Assembly: GCA_902500995.1 (NCBI GenBank)
Contig: CABVSR010000002.1
Location: 186,001-250,000 of the forward strand
Direction of reading: 5' to 3'
DNA from: an uncultured Nitrospira sp.
GTDB lineage: Bacteria; Nitrospirota; Nitrospiria; Nitrospirales; Nitrospiraceae
Length of the DNA stretch: 64,000 bases
Shown: one piece after another, positions 7,137 to 39,850 of the stretch
Layout of the letters: each line of letters starts with the position of its first letter
Numbering within the stretch: the stretch's first letter is position 1
Notes under the pieces: generated by a model
Seen by the model: only the letters and a program-made list of their open reading frames with translations
Told to the model about the DNA's origin: nothing
Databases searched by the model: none
Made by a program: the position numbers and the translations under genes

Positions 7137-7823
7137 CACGTGACTGCTACTTAGTATGGTGGGACATCGCCAGGAGGATAAACACGAGGGTTTCAAGCCA
7201 GTACGATTTTTTATCGCAGATGTAGGCAAACAATTCCGACGTAAGTCCATTGTATTCGACGACCCTGTTTGACGCATGCCGGTCCTCCTTTCGTGTGTGG
7301 TTTCTATAGACGGCTAGGCTTCGCCTCACTACTCAACAAGTCCATGCGGGTATCCGTGTCTCATCCTCTCAGACAGCCGGATGAATTGAATGCCCACTTG
7401 CTTTGCGGCCACTCGGCGTACGGCACCCAAGCTGACCCGTCTCGGATGGCGAACTAGCCGCGCTCCGTTAGTTGTTGGACCGAGGGTAGAACCAACCCCT
7501 AGACTGCTCTTTCTGTATCCTTTCGTCTGGCCTCTGTATCTCTCCGGATAATTTTAATTGCTCATCGTCACTGAATCTCGCTGATCAGTCCGACTTAGCA
7601 TAAAATACGTGCATTATAAAATTGGCCAATCACGCCAATTGTGTCTCTTCGCTGGTATCACACCCTACAAGAGCGAGGCCTAAACACTAATTGCACACAT
7701 CTTGCAGCCTCACTGGTACGCAGGCCTGGCCCAGGAAGGAACTACCTTACGGCGGCTCTCGTATCGACAAGGCAGCTCGCGTTCCATGGCTTTCTCACAT
7801 GTGTCATCAATAAGGAGGAGATC
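7137..7823. other. Gene-poor stretch between IS relic and DUF805 gene
   Basis: About 690 bases with only short unrelated open frames (up to about 60 codons) that have no ribosome-binding site or recognisable product. Composition is more AT-rich than its neighbours, notably around 7540-7630. The promoter of the DUF805 gene probably lies in the last 200 bases, but no convincing -35/-10 pair was found. It may be remnant DNA from the same insertion history as the IS. Confidence 0.5.
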
Positions 7824-8192
7824 ATGACGTTTCCAGAATCCATCTCAATTTGCATAAAAAAATATGCCGACTTCCACGGCCGGGCGCCAAGATCTGAGTT
7901 CTGGTGGTTTTATCTCTTTCAGTTTCTAGTGAGTTTTGGTTTTGGGATAGTGGCGGGATTTGTAGGCAGGATGCTCGGTCTTTCTGAAGACGTCGTCGCG
8001 GGCCTCGTAGTCATCCTTTACCTGGCGATCATGTTTCCGGGCCTAGCGGTCACAGCGCGTCGGCTGCACGACGTGAGCCGAAGTGGATGGTGGATGCTGT
8101 TCCCGGTGACGATTGTGGGAGCCATTCCTTTCTACTATTGGCTCTGCAAAGCAGGCGACCCTCAAGAGAACCAATACGGAACGGCGGTGTAG
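7824..8192 (+). CDS. DUF805 membrane protein
   Basis: 122-residue inner-membrane protein of the DUF805 (YhaH/YhaI-like) family, function unknown. Family marks are the N-terminal amphipathic segment FHGRAPRSEFWWFYLF, three hydrophobic helices (about residues 27-50, 58-80, 95-115), RRLHDVSRSGWW between helices, and the C-terminal G..NQYG. ATG 7824 follows an excellent AAGGAGGAG (7812-7820). An upstream-extended frame from 7641 has no support. The next gene, a lipoprotein, lies 59 bases downstream with its own strong ribosome-binding site; the two may be cotranscribed. Confidence 0.85.
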   Translation: MTFPESISICIKKYADFHGRAPRSEFWWFYLFQFLVSFGFGIVAGFVGRMLGLSEDVVAGLVVILYLAIMFPGLAVTARRLHDVSRSGWWMLFPVTIVGAIPFYYWLCKAGDPQENQYGTAV

Positions 8193-8251
8193 GCACTGAC
8201 CATCCACCCAGCAATACGGGTCTAAAGCTATTGATAGTCTAAGGAGGCATT

Positions 8252-8932
8252 ATGTCAGGCAGACACCATCATCGTGTATTGGCACAAGTCGCCATGTGGA
8301 TAAGCGTGGTCCTTCTCACCGGCTGTGTCGGGAAGGGTGGAACTATGATCTCATTGAGAACGATTGAACAGATGGCGCCGCCTTCTTCGTCGACTCGGAG
8401 TCAACAGATCTACCTCGCAAGTGAAGCGGAGGATGCGCATCCGGGTCGTCCCAATATCGGCGAGGCGACATGGACGTTGTTTTTCTTTCATGTCGACGGC
8501 ATCCAAGCAAACTCACCCATTACGACCCAAATGACAGCGCTGGCCAAACAAGCCTTCGAAAAGGCCGGCTACCAAGTGCATTCGGTGGCGGCGCGCGACA
8601 CGTTATCGAGTGGACATCCCGTCGTCCATGTCCGAGTGGATACCTTCTGGTATGACATGTGGAGTTACCCTTGGCCATTTGTTCCCATCTCCGGTCGCAC
8701 TGTGGTCACCGTATCCGTGAAGCAGCCCGACGGTCGGGAATTGTATGCTCGCCAGTTCCAGGGGAAGGGATGGGAGGCCTGTTGGTTTGGAAGTTGTGCC
8801 GATGAGGTGGAATCGGCCGTAGCCGAAAGCCTGACGGGCATCATGAATCAACTCTCACAGTGGGCGTCCGAGGAGGCATTCCGGAAAGTCGTCATGGCGG
8901 ATGGTACCGAACAGCGCCGAGCTGGGCCGTAA
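8252..8932 (+). CDS. Hypothetical lipoprotein
   Basis: 226 residues with a lipoprotein signal peptide: basic N-terminus (SGRHHHR), hydrophobic core, and lipobox LLTGC with the lipidated cysteine at residue 25. AAGGAGG precedes the ATG. The mature part has no motif that I recognise. It contains segments rich in aromatic residues (TFWYDMWSYPWPFVPISGRT), followed by VTVSVKQPDGRELYARQFQGKG, resembling an outer-membrane-associated lipoprotein fold with beta strands. Function unknown. Confidence 0.75.
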   Translation: MSGRHHHRVLAQVAMWISVVLLTGCVGKGGTMISLRTIEQMAPPSSSTRSQQIYLASEAEDAHPGRPNIGEATWTLFFFHVDGIQANSPITTQMTALAKQAFEKAGYQVHSVAARDTLSSGHPVVHVRVDTFWYDMWSYPWPFVPISGRTVVTVSVKQPDGRELYARQFQGKGWEACWFGSCADEVESAVAESLTGIMNQLSQWASEEAFRKVVMADGTEQRRAGP

Positions 8933-9141
8933 TACCGAGTTTCTCGGAGAACAGCGTGATTGGCTGGGCCCTGGGCTGTCGGCTCACAGGGGAGTTGACG
9001 CAGCAGGCGTTAGCGCAGGTGCTCAACCGTCGTCATCCGAAACCCGGGCTGCTCCAGCATTGAGATCGCACCCATGATCGGCCACGCACGTCATGTGAGC
9101 TTTTGCAGGCACAGACTGGCTGGGTGATTCGCAAATGTCGG

Positions 9142-10296
9142 CTAGCGGGACTGCAGGGCATCCAGAAAGCTGTCGCCCCAGGGAAGTCTTGTTGCGCCCA
9201 AGGCTTCGCCGATGGTCTGGCCGAGGTCGGCGGCTGTTGCCCTGGTCCCGAGGTTCACGCCGCGAGCAAGCCGAGGGCCGGTGATCAAACAAGGGACATA
9301 TTCGCGAGAGTGTCCGGGGTTCGGTCTGGCGCAGTCGAACCCATGGTCCCCCGTGAGGATGAGGACATCGCCGATCTTGAGACAGTCTTGCAGGTCGCGC
9401 AGCCGCCGGTCGACATGTTGCAGCGTCGAGACGGTGTCCTGCAGATCGGGACTCATGATGGGCAGATTCGCGTAGATCAACCCGCGAGGCGCTTTGCTGA
9501 ACATGGCGATGACTTCGTCCATGACGGCAGGGGCATCAAAAAGTGGCACAGACCTGGTGACGCCGCGCCCGCTGAACAAGTCGCCGACTTTCCCTATCCC
9601 GAAAACCAGCTGGCTGGCTTGGCTCAAGTGATCCAGCAGCGTGAGGCCCGGTGCTTCCACGGCAAAATCCCGGCGGCGGTCCGTGACAGAAAATTGCCCC
9701 GGCTGCCCGGTAAACGGAAGAGCGACCACGCGAACGATCGGCATGGTTGCCTTGAGCCGCCGTCTGGCTTCGCGCGCCAGGCGATACAATTCCTCCGGCG
9801 GGACGATCTGCTCGTGAGCCGCCAGCATAATGGTCCCGGCCGTATCGATCCACGCGATGGGCATGCCTGACTTCTGATGCTGCGCCCCAAACTCGGCGAT
9901 CGGCTCGAGGCGAACCGTGCGGCAGTTCCCGAGCGTCTTCTGACCCAACGCGGCTTCAAGGCCGGACGCGAGTTCGTGCGTAAAGGTCTCATAAGGCGGC
10001 GGGCCGTCTTCGATGACGTACCCGGCCAATTCCCAATGTCCGGCCAGGGAATGTTTGCCCTTGGTCGTAAACCCCAACATGCCGTAGCAGCCCTCGGGCT
10101 GCGCAATCGGGCGGATGCCTTGAAACTGGCCGAGGAGGCCGAGACCCAGTTGTTCGAGATTCGGAAGGGCGAGCCCTTTGGAGATGGCCGCCAGCCGCTG
10201 CAGCGTATTGCAGCCGGCATCGCCGTACGATTCCGCATCGGGCAGCGCTCCGATGCCACAGCCGTCCAACACCAACAGTACGATTCGAGTCATCAT
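9142..10296 (-). CDS. deoB: Phosphopentomutase (DeoB)
   Basis: Alkaline-phosphatase-superfamily, Mn-dependent enzyme interconverting (deoxy)ribose 1- and 5-phosphates in nucleoside salvage/catabolism. 384 residues is normal. Metal-site motifs are present: VLDGCGIGALPDA at the N-terminus, LTGDHGFD and PGHSREYVP near the C-terminus. The active-site loop before GHWE, usually KDTxTGHWE, reads KHSLAGHWE, so the phosphorylated Thr region carries Ser and Ala instead. The gene lies 92 bases downstream of deoC on the same strand, and the two make a deoxyribose-phosphate salvage pair feeding acetaldehyde and glyceraldehyde 3-phosphate. Confidence 0.9.
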   Translation of the reverse strand: MMTRIVLLVLDGCGIGALPDAESYGDAGCNTLQRLAAISKGLALPNLEQLGLGLLGQFQGIRPIAQPEGCYGMLGFTTKGKHSLAGHWELAGYVIEDGPPPYETFTHELASGLEAALGQKTLGNCRTVRLEPIAEFGAQHQKSGMPIAWIDTAGTIMLAAHEQIVPPEELYRLAREARRRLKATMPIVRVVALPFTGQPGQFSVTDRRRDFAVEAPGLTLLDHLSQASQLVFGIGKVGDLFSGRGVTRSVPLFDAPAVMDEVIAMFSKAPRGLIYANLPIMSPDLQDTVSTLQHVDRRLRDLQDCLKIGDVLILTGDHGFDCARPNPGHSREYVPCLITGPRLARGVNLGTRATAADLGQTIGEALGATRLPWGDSFLDALQSR

Positions 10297-33290: not shown

Positions 33291-33974
33291 ATGCGCGGAC
33301 ACACATCATTTTCCAGAAGCGGCACAGTGCGTCACCTCGCCGCCTGCGTCGCCGTCGCGCTCCTCGGCTGCCTGGCTCTCCTCCCTGCCACCGCACATGC
33401 CGGCCGAACTCTCGTCGTTCCCATCTCCGTCGCAACCTATACAGAAGATCAAATCGGCTTCCCGACGTTCGTCATGAAGTGGGACGAAGGCCGTCAGCCC
33501 GATCCGCTGGCCTTGCGATGGGGGCGCAGTCAGGTCCCTGTCCGGGGGACCGGCATGAGCTCGCTTCAGCGAGCGTTTCAGTTCGCCGTCGCACGCGTGG
33601 GCTCCACCATTCGCCCGACCGGAACCCTGTCGCTCTATGCCACGTTTACGGGTCCGCTCAGCGAGGGGGGATCAACGGCGGAAGCCGCCCTGGCAATTGG
33701 ATTCATCGCCCTGCTGAAGGGGGATCAACTGGTCCGAGACATTACGATCACAGGAACGTTGGAAGGTGATGGGCGAATCGGACCGGTGGCTCAGGTCGCA
33801 GAAAAAATGAGCGCAGCCGCGAGAGCCGGCTACCACATGTTGCTGGTACCGCGCGGACAGTTTTATGCTCCTCGAATCAATCGAGTCAGCATGACGGCCG
33901 AATCCAACGTGCTGGTCCGCGAAGTCGACACGATCGAAGAAGCCTACGAAATCATGACAGGGAAACGACTCTAG
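33291..33974 (+). CDS. Exported Lon-like (S16 family) protease domain protein
   Basis: 227 residues: signal peptide (CVAVALLGCLALLPATAHA, cleavage near 37), then a domain with the layout of the Lon proteolytic domain. The stretch PLSEGGSTAEAALAIGFIAL aligns with the Lon serine region (Ser128, or Thr129 if the gap is placed differently), DITITGTLEGDGRIGPVAQV with the following strand, and Lys172 in QVAEKMSAAARAGY with the catalytic Lys of the Ser-Lys dyad. There is no AAA+ ATPase domain. It would be a periplasmic S16 peptidase or a pseudo-enzyme. Divergent from the SDR, convergent with the CHAT gene. Confidence 0.75.
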   Translation: MRGHTSFSRSGTVRHLAACVAVALLGCLALLPATAHAGRTLVVPISVATYTEDQIGFPTFVMKWDEGRQPDPLALRWGRSQVPVRGTGMSSLQRAFQFAVARVGSTIRPTGTLSLYATFTGPLSEGGSTAEAALAIGFIALLKGDQLVRDITITGTLEGDGRIGPVAQVAEKMSAAARAGYHMLLVPRGQFYAPRINRVSMTAESNVLVREVDTIEEAYEIMTGKRL

Positions 33975-34060: not shown

Positions 34061-36532
34061 CTACATCCAGTTGTTGATCAAGAGAAAGGCCGCCCAGTAA
34101 CTGGGATGCGTGTGACCGCGCTGAGAGAGAATTTTTTGCTGCGCCCGCTGCAAGGCCACAGCCTTTGAGATCGCCGGATCCTGCAATTGCCGGTAGAACT
34201 CCGACACCAGTTCCGTCGTCGTTTCATCATCCGACGTCCACAAACTCGCCAGCGCCGTCCGTGCCCCCGTCTTCACAGCAACACCCGTCAGCCCCAGCGC
34301 CGCTCGATCATCCTCGGCGGCCGTTTCACTCGCACTGAATGTGAGAAGATCCAGCGGCTGTTGGCGGTACTGTTGAAGTCCCACCAACTGCGACAACCGA
34401 TCCATCGTGATCTTGCCGTCATGCGCCAACACGAACGAATCCTTGGCTTCGTTGTCGATGACCGTGTGAGACGCCACATGGACGATGCCGAGACCTTGAT
34501 CCTTGATCTCTTCCTCCAACGTCGGCGTGGAGAATTGTTTGTTCATCAGCAGTTTTCCGCCGTACATCGTTCTGATGGCCTGGACTTCGGTTTCCGCGTA
34601 GCGCGGCGCCGACTGGCCCTCGACGGACTCGGTCAGGCCGACCGATAGCAGACTGCCCTTGCGGCGTTGCGGCGGTCCCATGTCGGTCAGTGCCAGACTT
34701 GGCGTGACAGCCACGGCGAGTGAATCCACGAGAAAATGCCGGCCATCGTGCAGGGCCCCCATCGGAATGGTTCTGAGCGATCCGTCGGCGACCATCACGA
34801 GTGTATGGATGCCGGCGCCCTGCAAGTCCTGCTGGACAGGCGCCACCAGCCACCCGTGCAAGGTTTGCGCAGAGGACAGGTAGTTTTGCGACTGCGAATC
34901 CTGAACCAGCCGTCTGAACGTACGAATCTCTTTGGTCAGCTTGTCTCCCGCTACGGGGACCCGGACTTGCTTCAGTCCGCTGGCGGTTTCCAGGAGCAGT
35001 TCGAGACGATCCGGAAACGCGAGTGGATACAGCACCGCCGTGCCGGAAGGCAATGGACCGGCGCCGCGGTGACTCGCGACCGTCGCGACACAATCGTCCT
35101 GGAAATAATCCTGCAGCTCGGCCGCCCGTGAGGTTTCGATCGTCTGTCTCACCTGCACCAGCAACTGTTCATTCTGCTCGGGTGTTTTCGCGGCTGCCGC
35201 TCGCCGCAGCAAGACATCTTCATACTCCACAAACAACGGCGCCACGGATTCGTAATAGGAATGGTGCCGCCCCTGGTACCCGACCGAATATTCGTAGTGA
35301 ATCGGCTTCAGCAGTGTCACGGCGCGCTGATAGGCGGCCAGCGATTCTTCCTCCTTGCCCTCCGCGCGCAACAGTCTTGCCGTTTGCCATTGCCAGCGAT
35401 ACAGCGACTCCGGCGCGTTCACTTTCTGCGCAGCAAACGTCGCCTTTCGCGAATATTCCAACGCTTCGGGATTGCGATGCTCCTGCTCCCGCACCCCACC
35501 CAGATACCCCCAGGCATAGGATTCCCCGCGCGCATCACCGGTGCGTCCGGCGACCTCACCCGCCGCGGCAAAGGCCTCCGAGGCTTGCCGCAACAGGCCG
35601 GCTGCAGAGCCGACAGAGGCCACGGCTTCCGTCGCCCGGCCCTTCGCCGCATCCGCCTTCTTTGCCTGGCCGGATTTTCCCGTCGTGGCGGCGGATAATT
35701 CCTGATATCCAAGGCCGATATTCAACAACCCGGCGGTCTTGGCTTGGCCATCTCCCAGTGACCGCACCTCGGTCCAGGCTTGATCCAGATGGCGATGCGC
35801 TTCTCCCAGTTGCTGATTCTGGAGCAAGGCCATCGCGCCATTGATCTGCGCCGTCGCCGCGAGCGCCTCTTGCTTGCTCTCCGCGGCAAGCGCCCGGCTT
35901 TCCGCATAGACGTCGATCGCTTCCGCAAACTGGCGGCGGGCGGTCAGGGCATTGCCGAGATCATTCAAGATGCCGGACACCAACACCGGCCTATTCACCT
36001 CGCGCGCCAGCGTCAACGCCTTCGTCAGATGCTCGGTCGCTGGCTCGTCTTTGCCGAGCAGGTGGAAGGTATTGCCGAGCTGAGCGAGAATGGTGGCTGT
36101 CAGACCTCGTTCACCGGCTTGTTCCGAAAGTTTCAGCGCGCTTTGCAAGGTCCCTTGCGCGCGGCGGATCTGCCCTTCCTGCTGGAGGGCGTGCGCGACA
36201 TTGATCAAGGCCTGGCTCTGCTCTTTGACCTGGCCGATTTCTTCAAACCCCCGCGCCGCATTCATCCAGTGCGCGGCCGCCTGGCCAAAGGCTCGTTGTT
36301 GAAACTGCGTGGTGCCCTGCCGCATTTCTTGCGCCGGGGTCATCGACGTGCCCGAGCCGCCCAACAATTCCAGCGCCATCCCGCTTGTAGGCCAGCCGAA
36401 TCCGCCGAACGCGAGGACCCCGAGGCTCAGGATGGTCAACGGCGAGGAACGCACCAGCGAGCCAAGCGGACCGGGAGACCCATGCCTCCGCTTCATGCCG
36501 CGGCGAATGAGAATGTTACGCATCGTAGGCAT
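34061..36532 (-). CDS. Exported TPR-CHAT protein with Cys-to-Ser change
   Basis: 823 residues, AAGGAGG five bases before the ATG. A signal peptide/anchor near residues 30-55 is followed by tetratricopeptide repeats (about 70-450; for example RAQGTLQSALKLSEQAGERG) and a C-terminal CHAT (caspase-HetF) peptidase domain (about 520-823). The catalytic His is present (IVHVASH, His689), but the usual LSACET cysteine motif reads FSASET (Ser735, codon AGT, one base from TGT). It is probably proteolytically dead or altered. Last gene of the tpsB-tpsA operon, 18 bases after tpsA, so linked to two-partner secretion. Confidence 0.88.
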   Translation of the reverse strand: MPTMRNILIRRGMKRRHGSPGPLGSLVRSSPLTILSLGVLAFGGFGWPTSGMALELLGGSGTSMTPAQEMRQGTTQFQQRAFGQAAAHWMNAARGFEEIGQVKEQSQALINVAHALQQEGQIRRAQGTLQSALKLSEQAGERGLTATILAQLGNTFHLLGKDEPATEHLTKALTLAREVNRPVLVSGILNDLGNALTARRQFAEAIDVYAESRALAAESKQEALAATAQINGAMALLQNQQLGEAHRHLDQAWTEVRSLGDGQAKTAGLLNIGLGYQELSAATTGKSGQAKKADAAKGRATEAVASVGSAAGLLRQASEAFAAAGEVAGRTGDARGESYAWGYLGGVREQEHRNPEALEYSRKATFAAQKVNAPESLYRWQWQTARLLRAEGKEEESLAAYQRAVTLLKPIHYEYSVGYQGRHHSYYESVAPLFVEYEDVLLRRAAAAKTPEQNEQLLVQVRQTIETSRAAELQDYFQDDCVATVASHRGAGPLPSGTAVLYPLAFPDRLELLLETASGLKQVRVPVAGDKLTKEIRTFRRLVQDSQSQNYLSSAQTLHGWLVAPVQQDLQGAGIHTLVMVADGSLRTIPMGALHDGRHFLVDSLAVAVTPSLALTDMGPPQRRKGSLLSVGLTESVEGQSAPRYAETEVQAIRTMYGGKLLMNKQFSTPTLEEEIKDQGLGIVHVASHTVIDNEAKDSFVLAHDGKITMDRLSQLVGLQQYRQQPLDLLTFSASETAAEDDRAALGLTGVAVKTGARTALASLWTSDDETTTELVSEFYRQLQDPAISKAVALQRAQQKILSQRGHTHPSYWAAFLLINNWM

Positions 36533-36550
36533 GACGTCCTCCTTGGGAAG

Positions 36551-37831
36551 TTAGCACCCCTGCCATGATTCCATGAGTTGCGCGGTTGTCTGACCCTGAC
36601 TCTGTGCGGCCGGCGCGGCCGGCGCGCCAGGCTCCATATCGCCGCCGACCTCCTCCAGCACCACCGGTGCCGGCAGGGATCGCCCGGGCTGCGACGGCGT
36701 GACGTCCCTCGGAGCCTGCACGAGGCTGCTGAATGCGCCGTCTTTTCGCGCGGCGCAGCGGCTGGTCAGCAAGGGAGCCGGGGGGGCCGGAGCCTGTTGG
36801 GGAAGGATCATGGCCGCGCGATTCAAGAACGCCACCGGCTCGACCGGATTCGTCGGATTCACGCTGGCTACATTCGCGGTGGGGAGAGGCGGCAGTCCAC
36901 CAAGATTGACGCCCACGACCTGGATTTGCGTCACTCGCTGCGTGAACGGGTTCGTCGTCGTGTTAGCCTGCGCTCCCGTCGGCACGGTGACATTCGGGCT
37001 CACATCGATGGCGGCGGGAATCACGCCGCCGCCACCCGCGGCGATCAAGGTTCCGGGAAGCGCCTGGATCTGCCCGTTCCCCGCCGCTCCGGAGAACGGG
37101 TTTCCGACAAACGCCTGGGCACTCATTTCACCGGCCGAGCTGGTACTGCCGAGCATGACTCGCTGCGCGCTGATTTTCGATCCGTTGATCTGAATGCCTC
37201 CGCCCATCAAGCCCAGCACTGCCCCTGTCTGCAGCACCGTCGAAGGAGACGAGAGGATAATCGAACCATACGGGCCCTGGCCGAAAAATCCGAACGATAC
37301 CGGCGAGCCGACGGAGAGGGTCGAATCAAACGCCAAGAGGCTGCTGTTCGCGGTGAAGATTCCGCCGTCGGCCAAACGCACTTGTTGGGCGGTGCTGAAA
37401 TAGGCCGACCCGGACACGTTCAACTGCGCCGTCGGGCCGAACACGATGCCCGAAGGATTGATGAAAAACAGGTTCGCGTTGAGCGCTTGAACGGTGCCGT
37501 TGATGTTGGAGGGCGACCCTCCGATCACTCGGCCGACGACATTGGAGACTCCGCCGGGGTTCACGAAGGCCGCGACATCTCCCGTTCCGACGGAGAATTG
37601 ATTGAAGCTATGAAAGAGGTTTGGGCCGCCTCCCGGCCTCGTCCCGCCGGTGATGTTTGTCGTATTACCCGACGTGCTCAGCGTCGTGCCCAGGCCGCCG
37701 GGTCCGGAGGGGGTCGCCACGATGTTGGTGGCTTGACCGTAGGCGTTCGACCAGGTGGAGCCCAGAAGCATCAGGAAGGCGAACAATCCACAAATCAACA
37801 GCGGCGGCAATCCTGCGGGGCGACATACCAT
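36551..37831 (-). CDS. Short TpsA-type exoprotein (filamentous haemagglutinin N-terminal domain)
   Basis: 426 residues from ATG 37831 (AGGAG seven bases upstream), beginning at the signal peptide (MVCRPAGLPPLLICGLFAFL). Residues about 40-260 are the TPS secretion domain, with the NPxGI signature (NLFFINPSGIVFGPTAQLNV) and HSFNQFSVGTGDVAAF. It lacks the long beta-helix of classical adhesins; after residue 300 it is Pro/Ala-rich and ends SWQGC. The neighbouring tpsB encodes the cognate outer-membrane pore. Could be a small surface or secreted adhesin-like passenger. Confidence 0.85.
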   Translation of the reverse strand: MVCRPAGLPPLLICGLFAFLMLLGSTWSNAYGQATNIVATPSGPGGLGTTLSTSGNTTNITGGTRPGGGPNLFHSFNQFSVGTGDVAAFVNPGGVSNVVGRVIGGSPSNINGTVQALNANLFFINPSGIVFGPTAQLNVSGSAYFSTAQQVRLADGGIFTANSSLLAFDSTLSVGSPVSFGFFGQGPYGSIILSSPSTVLQTGAVLGLMGGGIQINGSKISAQRVMLGSTSSAGEMSAQAFVGNPFSGAAGNGQIQALPGTLIAAGGGGVIPAAIDVSPNVTVPTGAQANTTTNPFTQRVTQIQVVGVNLGGLPPLPTANVASVNPTNPVEPVAFLNRAAMILPQQAPAPPAPLLTSRCAARKDGAFSSLVQAPRDVTPSQPGRSLPAPVVLEEVGGDMEPGAPAAPAAQSQGQTTAQLMESWQGC

Positions 37832-38032
37832 GGTCAATCTCCTCATGTGATCAGAGAGGCGGAGCGGCCTCATCTCATACCCTAAACAGTCCGCAACTTC
37901 AACCAGCACAGATCCCTTCCATGCGTGATCTGGAGCGGATGAGAGCCTGCCGATCGGCCCCGGCCATTCACCCCTGGCCTGGTAGGGCACCTTCAGCGAA
38001 TTCGAACCCCACCGCCGGCTGCCGGCCTGCTG

Positions 38033-39850
38033 TTAAAACGCCTCGACCACCAGCTGCAGATGGATACCGTGATCCTGCAGGTTGTCGCGATCGGTGTCGT
38101 AGCGCTTCAGCTGTTTTCCGTAGTAGAGTTCGAAGTGGCTCCCCCGCCAGAAATTCCAGATGACACCGGCACCGATGCTCGCCAATGTCTTAGGCGGAGT
38201 TCCAGGCGTCTGAACCGTCGTCTGCCAGCCGTGTCCCAAATCAAAAAACGGCGCGATAAATACGGAATCCACACCGGCCTTGGTCGTATACACGGGCACC
38301 CGCGCCTCGATGGATAACATCGCCGCATTGTCACGGATCAACGTGAACTCCCGGTACCCGCGGACGCTGTAGCGCCCACCGACGGCAATTTGTTCCAGCG
38401 GAAACAGGTGATCGTTGGACAGTTGCACGAGGCCTCTGCTGACCAACTGCGTCCGCCATAAGGGCAGTTGGCGGATCCACTGCGCTTCGCCCAACCAGGA
38501 GAAGAACCGCGCATCCGGCAAATTCGGGTCGCCATTGGCGGTCGCCCCGATTGCGCCGACGCCGACGGAGAACCGCGATAACAGCGAGATCACCTGTTCG
38601 GCAGAGCGCCGGGCATATTCCTGCCCGAAACGCAGGGAGGTGATCCGAAACTTTCCGTTCGGCGCCCCGGTGATGAACTCAAAGGGAGTTCCGCCGAGCG
38701 TGCTTTCGTTCGTCGCATGTTCGCCCGTGAGGGAAAAGGCCAGTTCCTGATCGGCCTTCCGAATCACCGGATGCCGGACAGACAGGCCGAAGATCTGCGC
38801 CTTGTTCTTGATATCCAACGTATCGAACGGCGATTCCTCCACCCCGAAATCAAAGCGCCGATATTGCAGCGCCACGGTGGTATCGCGAGGGCCGACCGGG
38901 ATCTCGTAGCGGAAATTGAGCATCGGGTTAACCCCGGCCGAGCGACCGTATTGCAGACTCAGCGTATCACCGAATCCCAGCAGGTTCCGGTGAGCCAGCG
39001 TGACGAACCCTTGCTCCGCACCCACGACGGGGGACTGATAGTTATTGAATTCCAACCAGGCTTTTAGCGGATTGGTCTCCTTCACTTTGACATTCAGCGT
39101 ACTTTCTCCGATGGTCGCCCCCGGCAACAGTTCGGCATTGATCCGTTCGATCCGGGGATTGGCTTGCATCACGCGCAACCGTTCCTGGAGCGCTTCGACA
39201 TGCAACGGGGGGCCGGCCGCCAGATTCACCCGGCTTTGAAAATACGAGGGGCGGAACCACTTGGTATCCTCGACATTGACCTGCGTAATTTTTCCTTCGA
39301 TGATCTGCATGGTCAGGGTGCCGTCGGCGACATCCTGCTCCGGGACGACCGCGCCGGACGTCAGATAGCCGTGATTGACGTAGTAATAGGTGAGCGCGAG
39401 ACGCAAGGATTCGAGATCTTCCGCGGTCAACTCGCGGTTTGTATAGGGAGCGGTGATTTCCGAGAGCTGTTGCGACGTGAAGGCCGTATTGCCCACCAAG
39501 CGGATGTCCTTGACCATGATCTTGGGCCCCTTCGCGGCCTGATCGAGCGCGCCGGGGCGTGGCGGCGACGGAAGTTCCAGCGCAGGGGGCTGGGCCGGCG
39601 GGGGCACGACGGGCAACTGCGGCGGTTTGGGGGGCAACGGACCGAGCTGCGAGCCGGTCTGCGCATGAGCCGGCAGGACCAGTGCGCCAAGTAAGACCAG
39701 CGCCGCCATCCCCGCCATAATTACCCGCCGCGGATCCGACACACTCCGGCTGGTCAGACAGCGAGGCGAACTCTCGCCCGGCTCAGGCCCTGCAACAGCC
39801 AGCCCCAACGTTTCCTGTTCCTGCCCCATCGACTTCTTCACACAAGCCAT
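38033..39850 (-). CDS. TpsB (ShlB/FhaC-type) two-partner secretion transporter
   Basis: 605 residues from ATG 39850 (GGGGAGG five bases upstream). After an unusually long charged N-terminal region and a hydrophobic segment (VIMAGMAALVLLGALVLPAHA), a Pro-rich linker leads to two POTRA domains (about 100-260: KIMVKDIRLVGNTAFTSQQL; EGKITQVNVED) and the 16-stranded beta-barrel with the loop-6 motif SVRGYRE and a terminal Phe. It is an Omp85-superfamily pore that exports TpsA across the outer membrane. First gene of the operon. Confidence 0.93.
   Translation of the reverse strand: MACVKKSMGQEQETLGLAVAGPEPGESSPRCLTSRSVSDPRRVIMAGMAALVLLGALVLPAHAQTGSQLGPLPPKPPQLPVVPPPAQPPALELPSPPRPGALDQAAKGPKIMVKDIRLVGNTAFTSQQLSEITAPYTNRELTAEDLESLRLALTYYYVNHGYLTSGAVVPEQDVADGTLTMQIIEGKITQVNVEDTKWFRPSYFQSRVNLAAGPPLHVEALQERLRVMQANPRIERINAELLPGATIGESTLNVKVKETNPLKAWLEFNNYQSPVVGAEQGFVTLAHRNLLGFGDTLSLQYGRSAGVNPMLNFRYEIPVGPRDTTVALQYRRFDFGVEESPFDTLDIKNKAQIFGLSVRHPVIRKADQELAFSLTGEHATNESTLGGTPFEFITGAPNGKFRITSLRFGQEYARRSAEQVISLLSRFSVGVGAIGATANGDPNLPDARFFSWLGEAQWIRQLPLWRTQLVSRGLVQLSNDHLFPLEQIAVGGRYSVRGYREFTLIRDNAAMLSIEARVPVYTTKAGVDSVFIAPFFDLGHGWQTTVQTPGTPPKTLASIGAGVIWNFWRGSHFELYYGKQLKRYDTDRDNLQDHGIHLQLVVEAF

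Follow-up and report, generated by a model that had tools for sequence, protein, structure and literature searches.

A CHAT-domain protein as a putative third partner in a two-partner secretion locus of Nitrospira

Two-partner secretion (TPS, type Vb) systems such as FhaB/FhaC, HMW1A/HMW1B and HxuA/HxuB combine a TpsB pore, made of POTRA domains and a 16-stranded barrel, with a TpsA passenger carrying an N-terminal TPS domain. Here we describe a locus of this type in a 64,000-nucleotide stretch of DNA from an uncultured Nitrospira sp. (contig CABVSR010000002.1, positions 186,001 to 250,000; the whole stretch is called the window below), where tpsB and tpsA stand in a row with a gene for a protein of tetratricopeptide repeats (TPR) and a CHAT domain. 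Compared with the classical systems it adds a conserved caspase-clan third partner, a specific module on the TpsA tail and a very short passenger. In HMW1 and HxuA a Cys-bearing, disulfide-looped C-terminus is held in the periplasm, and in CdrA/CdrB the periplasmic protease LapG cuts the periplasmic tail of the TPS adhesin CdrA, leading to its release (PMC5422565). The likeness to CdrA lies in the tail of a TPS adhesin being acted on by a periplasmic protease; however, LapG is not described within that TPS operon, whereas the CHAT protein contains TPRs and its gene is linked to those of the TPS. LapG also belongs to another protease family than CHAT, and the window protein is not matched by the LapG (BTLCP) family, Pfam giving CHAT and TPR only. 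The combination of a TPR superhelix with a CHAT domain is shared with Csx29 of Craspase (type III-E CRISPR), the best structural match of the window protein. In contrast to Csx29, which is cytosolic, RNA-activated and has an intact dyad, the window protein has a predicted signal peptide and no nucleophile; instead of the Cas7-11/Csx30 partnership and cytosolic setting of the Craspase TPR-CHATs, we find a TPS operon, predicted export and about 10% identity. An analogy of function alone is offered by PorU, the gingipain-like clan CD sortase of the type IX secretion system, whose exporter is unrelated and which has no CHAT/TPR architecture. PorU acts on a conserved C-terminal domain of cargo exported to the outer membrane (PMC8545088).

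Consistent with the sequence-only reading of the window, which had placed tpsB, a short tpsA and a TPR-CHAT gene in one row with ribosome-binding sites, these three genes are identified by their open reading frames (ORFs) and by Pfam matches far above the cut-offs. The triplet, whose conservation that reading had left to be checked, recurs over several phyla in Nitrospirota genomes, cyanobacterial plasmids and a multi-phylum scan. Each of the three TpsB genes of the source genome (3.97 Mb in 56 contigs, with 3 TpsB, 5 TpsA and 5 CHAT genes) has a TPR-CHAT neighbour, and across 148 Nitrospirota genomes a CHAT lies within 10 kb of 39 of 69 TpsB places. When TpsBs scoring over 440 bits against a three-sequence profile were taken as the subfamily of the window TpsB (43 loci), 39 had both CHAT and TpsA, the exceptions being L056, L057, L061 and L062; the remaining CHAT-less TpsBs of Nitrospirota belong to another subfamily. 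A scan with the CHAT alignment, using one genome per species, returned 80 loci from Nitrospirota, Desulfobacterota, several Pseudomonadota classes, Verrucomicrobia, Myxococcota and Scalindua. TpsA and/or TpsB adjoin the CHAT gene in 68 of them (both in 44, TpsB in 15, TpsA in 9), and about half of the 12 loci with CHAT alone are on short contigs or at contig ends. On cyanobacterial plasmids, tblastn found a CHAT within 16 kb at 30 of 35 TpsB loci. Annotation shows a CHAT gene or fragment close to four of the five that remain, and the last has its CHAT at a distance of 20 kb. These plasmids are not all independent, several of them belonging to strains of a single species. The recurrence of this arrangement in numerous genomes and the purifying selection acting on each of the three genes make it more than chance. 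Overall these results confirm that the tpsB-tpsA-CHAT triplet is real and widely conserved, and no local accident.

Some loci differ in their surroundings. Genes for CHASE2-domain and DUF928 proteins are frequent in the cyanobacterial TPS-CHAT loci (L085, L086, L202), hinting at a sensory input to them. At L057 (7354-11260, 11667-15032) a TpsB of the window subfamily has no adjoining TpsA or CHAT; its neighbours there are one TPR-barrel-like and one large secreted protein. This layout resembles that of L007 (G000:C20:30000-44000), about 15 kb from the TPS-CHAT locus on C20, where type VI secretion-type membrane genes (IcmF, DotU, VasE/TssK, FHA) lie beside a 1067-aa TPR-CHAT, a large secreted protein and a TPR protein that may form a barrel.

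The CHAT protein can be tied to the passenger by a short module near the C-terminal end of TpsA. In TpsAs of CHAT loci it has the consensus C-A-x-SSF-V-x-x-GR[DG]-x-LP-x-x-PGGxLxSP, with an Arg that is nearly invariant (95%) among the tails, and the window TpsA carries the variant C..SSL..PRDVTP..PG. As for the two Cys near the C-terminus on which an HMW1/HxuA-type disulfide anchor would depend, the window TpsA carries Cys359 plus one at its C-terminal end, like most Nitrospira; many distant relatives have the first Cys only. A profile of the module matches 107 of 113 TpsAs, including every intact TpsA of a CHAT locus; the six misses are L056 and L062, both without CHAT, and four truncated or N-filled ORFs. 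The same profile found no module in any of 10 TpsAs adjoining a TpsB without CHAT, two of which (again L056 and L062) are of the window subfamily. Module and CHAT co-occur with a Fisher p of 1e-14, a value to be read with non-independent loci and a profile trained on CHAT loci in mind. Lone module-bearing TpsA genes (G091, G097, G135) sit in genomes that have a TPS-type CHAT elsewhere. Further support is provided by three natural fusions, in which a single ORF encodes TpsA, module, TPR and CHAT in that order. Together, the shared module and the fusions support a tie between CHAT and the passenger TpsA itself. An apparent TpsB-CHAT fusion at L105 was rejected as an artefact: a stop is masked by an ambiguous codon, and the CHAT begins with a signal peptide of its own. 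At a second locus of the source genome (L006, on C24), three tandem TpsA genes are followed by one TpsB and one CHAT, a Cys-bearing paralogue at 7248-9560, and the two TpsA C-termini that were read are nearly identical, which suggests one tail reader for several passengers.

The sequence-only reading had missed two changes at the putative active site of the window CHAT, a Cys to Ser replacement and a Gly to Thr replacement after the catalytic His. Among TPS-linked CHATs, His and Cys are each kept in 124 of 125, and the window protein is the sole case of Cys loss, with LTFSASETA where relatives have LTLS[SA]CE[TI] and with two further non-synonymous changes flanking the altered codon. It does not have the His-Cys dyad that marks an active cysteine protease of clan CD. 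A CHAT orthologue occurs in every one of the 29 genomes of the genus and the dyad is broken in five, with His replaced by Gln or Arg in the four besides the window; throughout the window clade, Thr or Ser stands in place of the Gly that follows the His. On the tree these losses need four changes, three of them forced by well-supported branches, so that the dyad is by this reconstruction broken at least three to four times within the genus. Despite this, comparison of the CHAT gene with its orthologues gives dN/dS values of 0.07-0.12, about 0.08 in summary and much like those of tpsB and tpsA, a sign that selection on the gene is strong. Low dN/dS in the presence of broken dyads points to a window CHAT that matters, yet not as a standard cysteine protease.

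Membership of the window protein in the CHAT family (clan CD, caspase fold) is supported by both the PF12770 profile and fold matches. The AlphaFold2 (AF2) model (pLDDT 89, pTM 0.86) has TPR helices at residues 66-488 and an alpha/beta CHAT region at 498-820, and Foldseek places it nearest, among solved structures, to the Csx29 TPR-CHATs and separase. The best match, 8eey_B (Csx29), has an E of 1.7e-14, a TM-score of 0.42 and about 10% identity. The modelled architecture is common with Csx29, with a different superhelix as judged from TM-scores under 0.5 to the query. Matches in a PDB sequence search with the full CHAT alignment were swamped by TPR proteins. A Cys in the motif DYFxDxCV (window residue 481), invariant in 125 of 125 TPS-CHATs including the pseudo-protease, may be structural or a disulfide partner. 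An N-terminal hydrophobic stretch behind a basic residue is present in 109 of 121 stand-alone CHATs compared with 19 of 195 internal control stretches, and many of the CHATs that fail this test are over-extended ORFs. The CHAT protein is thus predicted to be exported by a Sec-type signal peptide, and because it has this peptide but no TPS domain, the stand-alone form would be expected in the periplasm.

Starting from the observed linkage, fusions, module-CHAT co-occurrence, lost nucleophile and purifying selection, we propose that the locus encodes a three-component two-partner secretion system. TpsB would thread the small TpsA across the outer membrane, N-terminal TPS domain first, leaving the end with the module on the periplasmic side, where the signal-peptide-bearing TPR-CHAT protein may bind it through its TPR/CHAT surface. 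In most relatives a dyad-bearing CHAT probably cuts or trims the tail, which would set whether the passenger is anchored or released. Given the decay of the dyad (Cys735Ser), the CHAT of the window lineage would instead be a periplasmic pseudo-protease acting as a holder or assembly factor for the TpsA tail. We infer the location, the binding, the cleavage and the choice between anchoring and release from these data, and we give the whole, an active tail protease in most relatives and a pseudo-protease holder here, about an even chance. The sequence-only reading had seen in the operon a periplasmic caspase-fold protein that processes the passenger or forms a sensing or effector complex on the cell surface. 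Its export remains the prediction, now with a tie to the passenger; processing by the window copy does not fit the missing nucleophile that 124 of 125 relatives keep, and a place on the cell surface does not fit a stand-alone protein with a Sec-type signal peptide and no TPS domain.

Several points weigh against this proposal. Its support comes from sequence and model analysis, and that for the location of CHAT from a hydropathy heuristic. The module profile was trained on TpsAs from CHAT loci, most module-less controls come from a more distant TpsA group with only two close relatives among them, and L061 carries the module although no CHAT is seen on its contig, which ends beside TpsA. In an AF2 model of a natural fusion segment (L159) the module was left disordered (pLDDT below 50) and no docking was seen. 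The Cys to Ser call comes from a single assembly without reads; this is offset by the other changes adjoining it and by the His losses in sister genomes, which are independent.

Other explanations have to be considered. Arg is the P1 residue for several clan CD proteases, and the near-invariant Arg of the tail, like the full dyad kept in relatives, would suit a window CHAT that is still an active processing protease on TpsA, with Ser735 or another residue as its nucleophile. Csx29 shows that TPR-CHAT proteins do act as proteases, but its H615A/C658A double mutant is inactive (PMC10028731). In addition, the Gly after the His is gone across the window clade, and sister orthologues have lost the His itself, to Gln or Arg, which a Ser swap does not repair. 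We weighed taking the Arg of the module strictly as a cleavage site without settling on it, since Craspases cut at non-conserved sites (PMC11106740) and a conserved Arg need not mark cleavage. We regard continued activity of the window protein as unlikely. An equally unlikely possibility is that CHAT is a payload, an effector or enzyme that travels to the cell surface along with TpsA. In the three fusions CHAT does form the C-terminal end of a TPS passenger; however, a TPS domain is missing from more than 100 CHATs that stand alone, and as the C-termini of several TPS passengers are periplasmic (HMW1, HxuA; PMC5422565), the fused CHAT may be too.

CHATs are known in defence systems (Craspase, diversity-generating retroelement loci) and CHASE2 or kinase genes are often near the cyanobacterial loci, which would be consistent with a surface TpsA that senses contact or phage and a CHAT that triggers a death or stress response. 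Against such a sensor-effector role, for which we see slightly less room still, no defence model of PADLOC matches the CHAT domain (weak TPR matches only), and the gene is present in all 29 genus genomes, in a syntenic neighbourhood at the loci compared and with a broken dyad in some. Least probable in our view is that the genes are merely co-regulated neighbours without physical interaction. At L008, L032 and L046 the CHAT gene is divergently oriented or has other genes in between, as such an explanation would allow, but it does not account for the TpsA-CHAT fusions, the co-occurrence of module and CHAT, or the retention in G135 of two TpsAs, a TpsB and a TPS-type CHAT that are all unlinked.

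The features of the locus are collected in Table 1. TpsB has the POTRA domain and ShlB/FhaC barrel of a type Vb pore (ShlB, E 7.5e-33; POTRA_2, E 9.5e-23; Omp85 also matched); its ATG at 39850 is preceded by GGGGAGG, and a longer ORF opens at GTG 39883. TpsA has the features of a type Vb passenger, an N-terminal TPS domain (PF05860, E 8.4e-32; TIGR01901 also matched) and a signal peptide read from the sequence. Its longest ORF runs from GTG 37990; the true start is likely ATG 37831, which has AGGAG upstream and the signal peptide directly after it and gives 426 aa, matching orthologue lengths. The TPR-CHAT gene (PF12770, E 1.1e-48; TPR_12, E 1e-17) follows tpsA after 18 nt with AAGGAGG before its start, and about 200 nt separate tpsB from tpsA. 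No convincing promoter or terminator was found between the three genes, signal counts being at shuffle level. Convergent to the CHAT gene, at 33291-33974 (plus strand), is a gene whose product has a signal peptide and a Lon C-terminal-like (S16) domain but no ATPase. This gene is kept beside CHAT in 9 orthologous loci of the genus; the candidate catalytic Ser of its product is Ala in several orthologues.

Table 1. Features of the three-gene locus (window positions) and natural fusions in other genomes
Feature	Position or source	Strand	Length	Basis
tpsB-tpsA-TPR-CHAT gene row	34061-39850	-		ORFs and Pfam matches far above cut-offs
tpsB, ShlB/FhaC-type Omp85 pore with POTRA	38033..39850	-	605 aa	Pfam ShlB, POTRA_2
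tpsA, short passenger, signal peptide MVCRPAGLPPLLICGLFAFLMLLGSTWSNAYGQ	36551..37831	-	426 aa	Pfam TPS, NCBIfam adhes_NPXG
TpsA TPS secretion domain	37124..37690	-		Pfam PF05860, residues 101-289 of long ORF
TpsA C-terminal module, RCAARKDGAFSSLVQAPRDVTPSQPGRSL, residues 358-386	36674..36760	-		Profile built from 91 TpsA tails
TPR-CHAT gene, predicted exported protein	34061..36532	-	823 aa	Pfam CHAT and TPR
Predicted signal peptide region of CHAT protein, residues 1-53, ...LTILSLGVLAFGGFGWPTSGMA	36374..36532	-		Hydropathy test
TPR superhelix, residues 66-488	35069..36337	-		AF2 secondary structure, Pfam TPRs
CHAT domain, residues 554-819	34076..34873	-		Pfam PF12770
Catalytic-His position, His689 kept, next residue Thr replacing Gly	34466..34468	-		Alignment
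Catalytic-Cys position, Ser735 (AGT) versus Cys (TGT/TGC in orthologues)	34328..34330	-		Alignment, codons
TpsA-module-TPR-CHAT fusion	Acaryochloris marina plasmid pREC3 (L089)		1774 aa	
TpsA-module-TPR-CHAT fusion	Desulfonema magnum (L126)		1469 aa	
TpsA-module-TPR-CHAT fusion	Desulfobacterales HSG2 (L159)		1681 aa	

In the open literature we found no paper joining two-partner secretion with the CHAT domain, nor one that brings the CHAT domain together with both filamentous hemagglutinin and TPR, subscription papers lying outside the search, and the papers sharing CHAT, caspase and filamentous hemagglutinin appear unrelated by title and abstract. The link therefore appears undescribed in the literature searched, and its novelty is provisional. 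Tentatively, and with somewhat less confidence than in the proposal above, the locus may represent a multi-phylum class of TPS with its own periplasmic partner from the caspase clan. This enzyme would recognise a sorting module at the C-terminus of the passenger and cut or ligate it, in the manner of LapG or a sortase, and in one lineage of nitrite oxidisers it would have become an inactive scaffold with a continuing part in secretion. Across at least six phyla, TPS has a caspase-clan protein as its standing third partner, accompanied by a matching tail on the passenger and by natural fusions, and the triplet offers a concrete and testable account of the possible anchoring or release of such passengers. 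The natural series of pseudo-proteases (Cys to Ser, His to Gln, His to Arg) would separate binding from cutting, and the reach of the CHAT family is extended past its cytosolic roles in defence and cell death.

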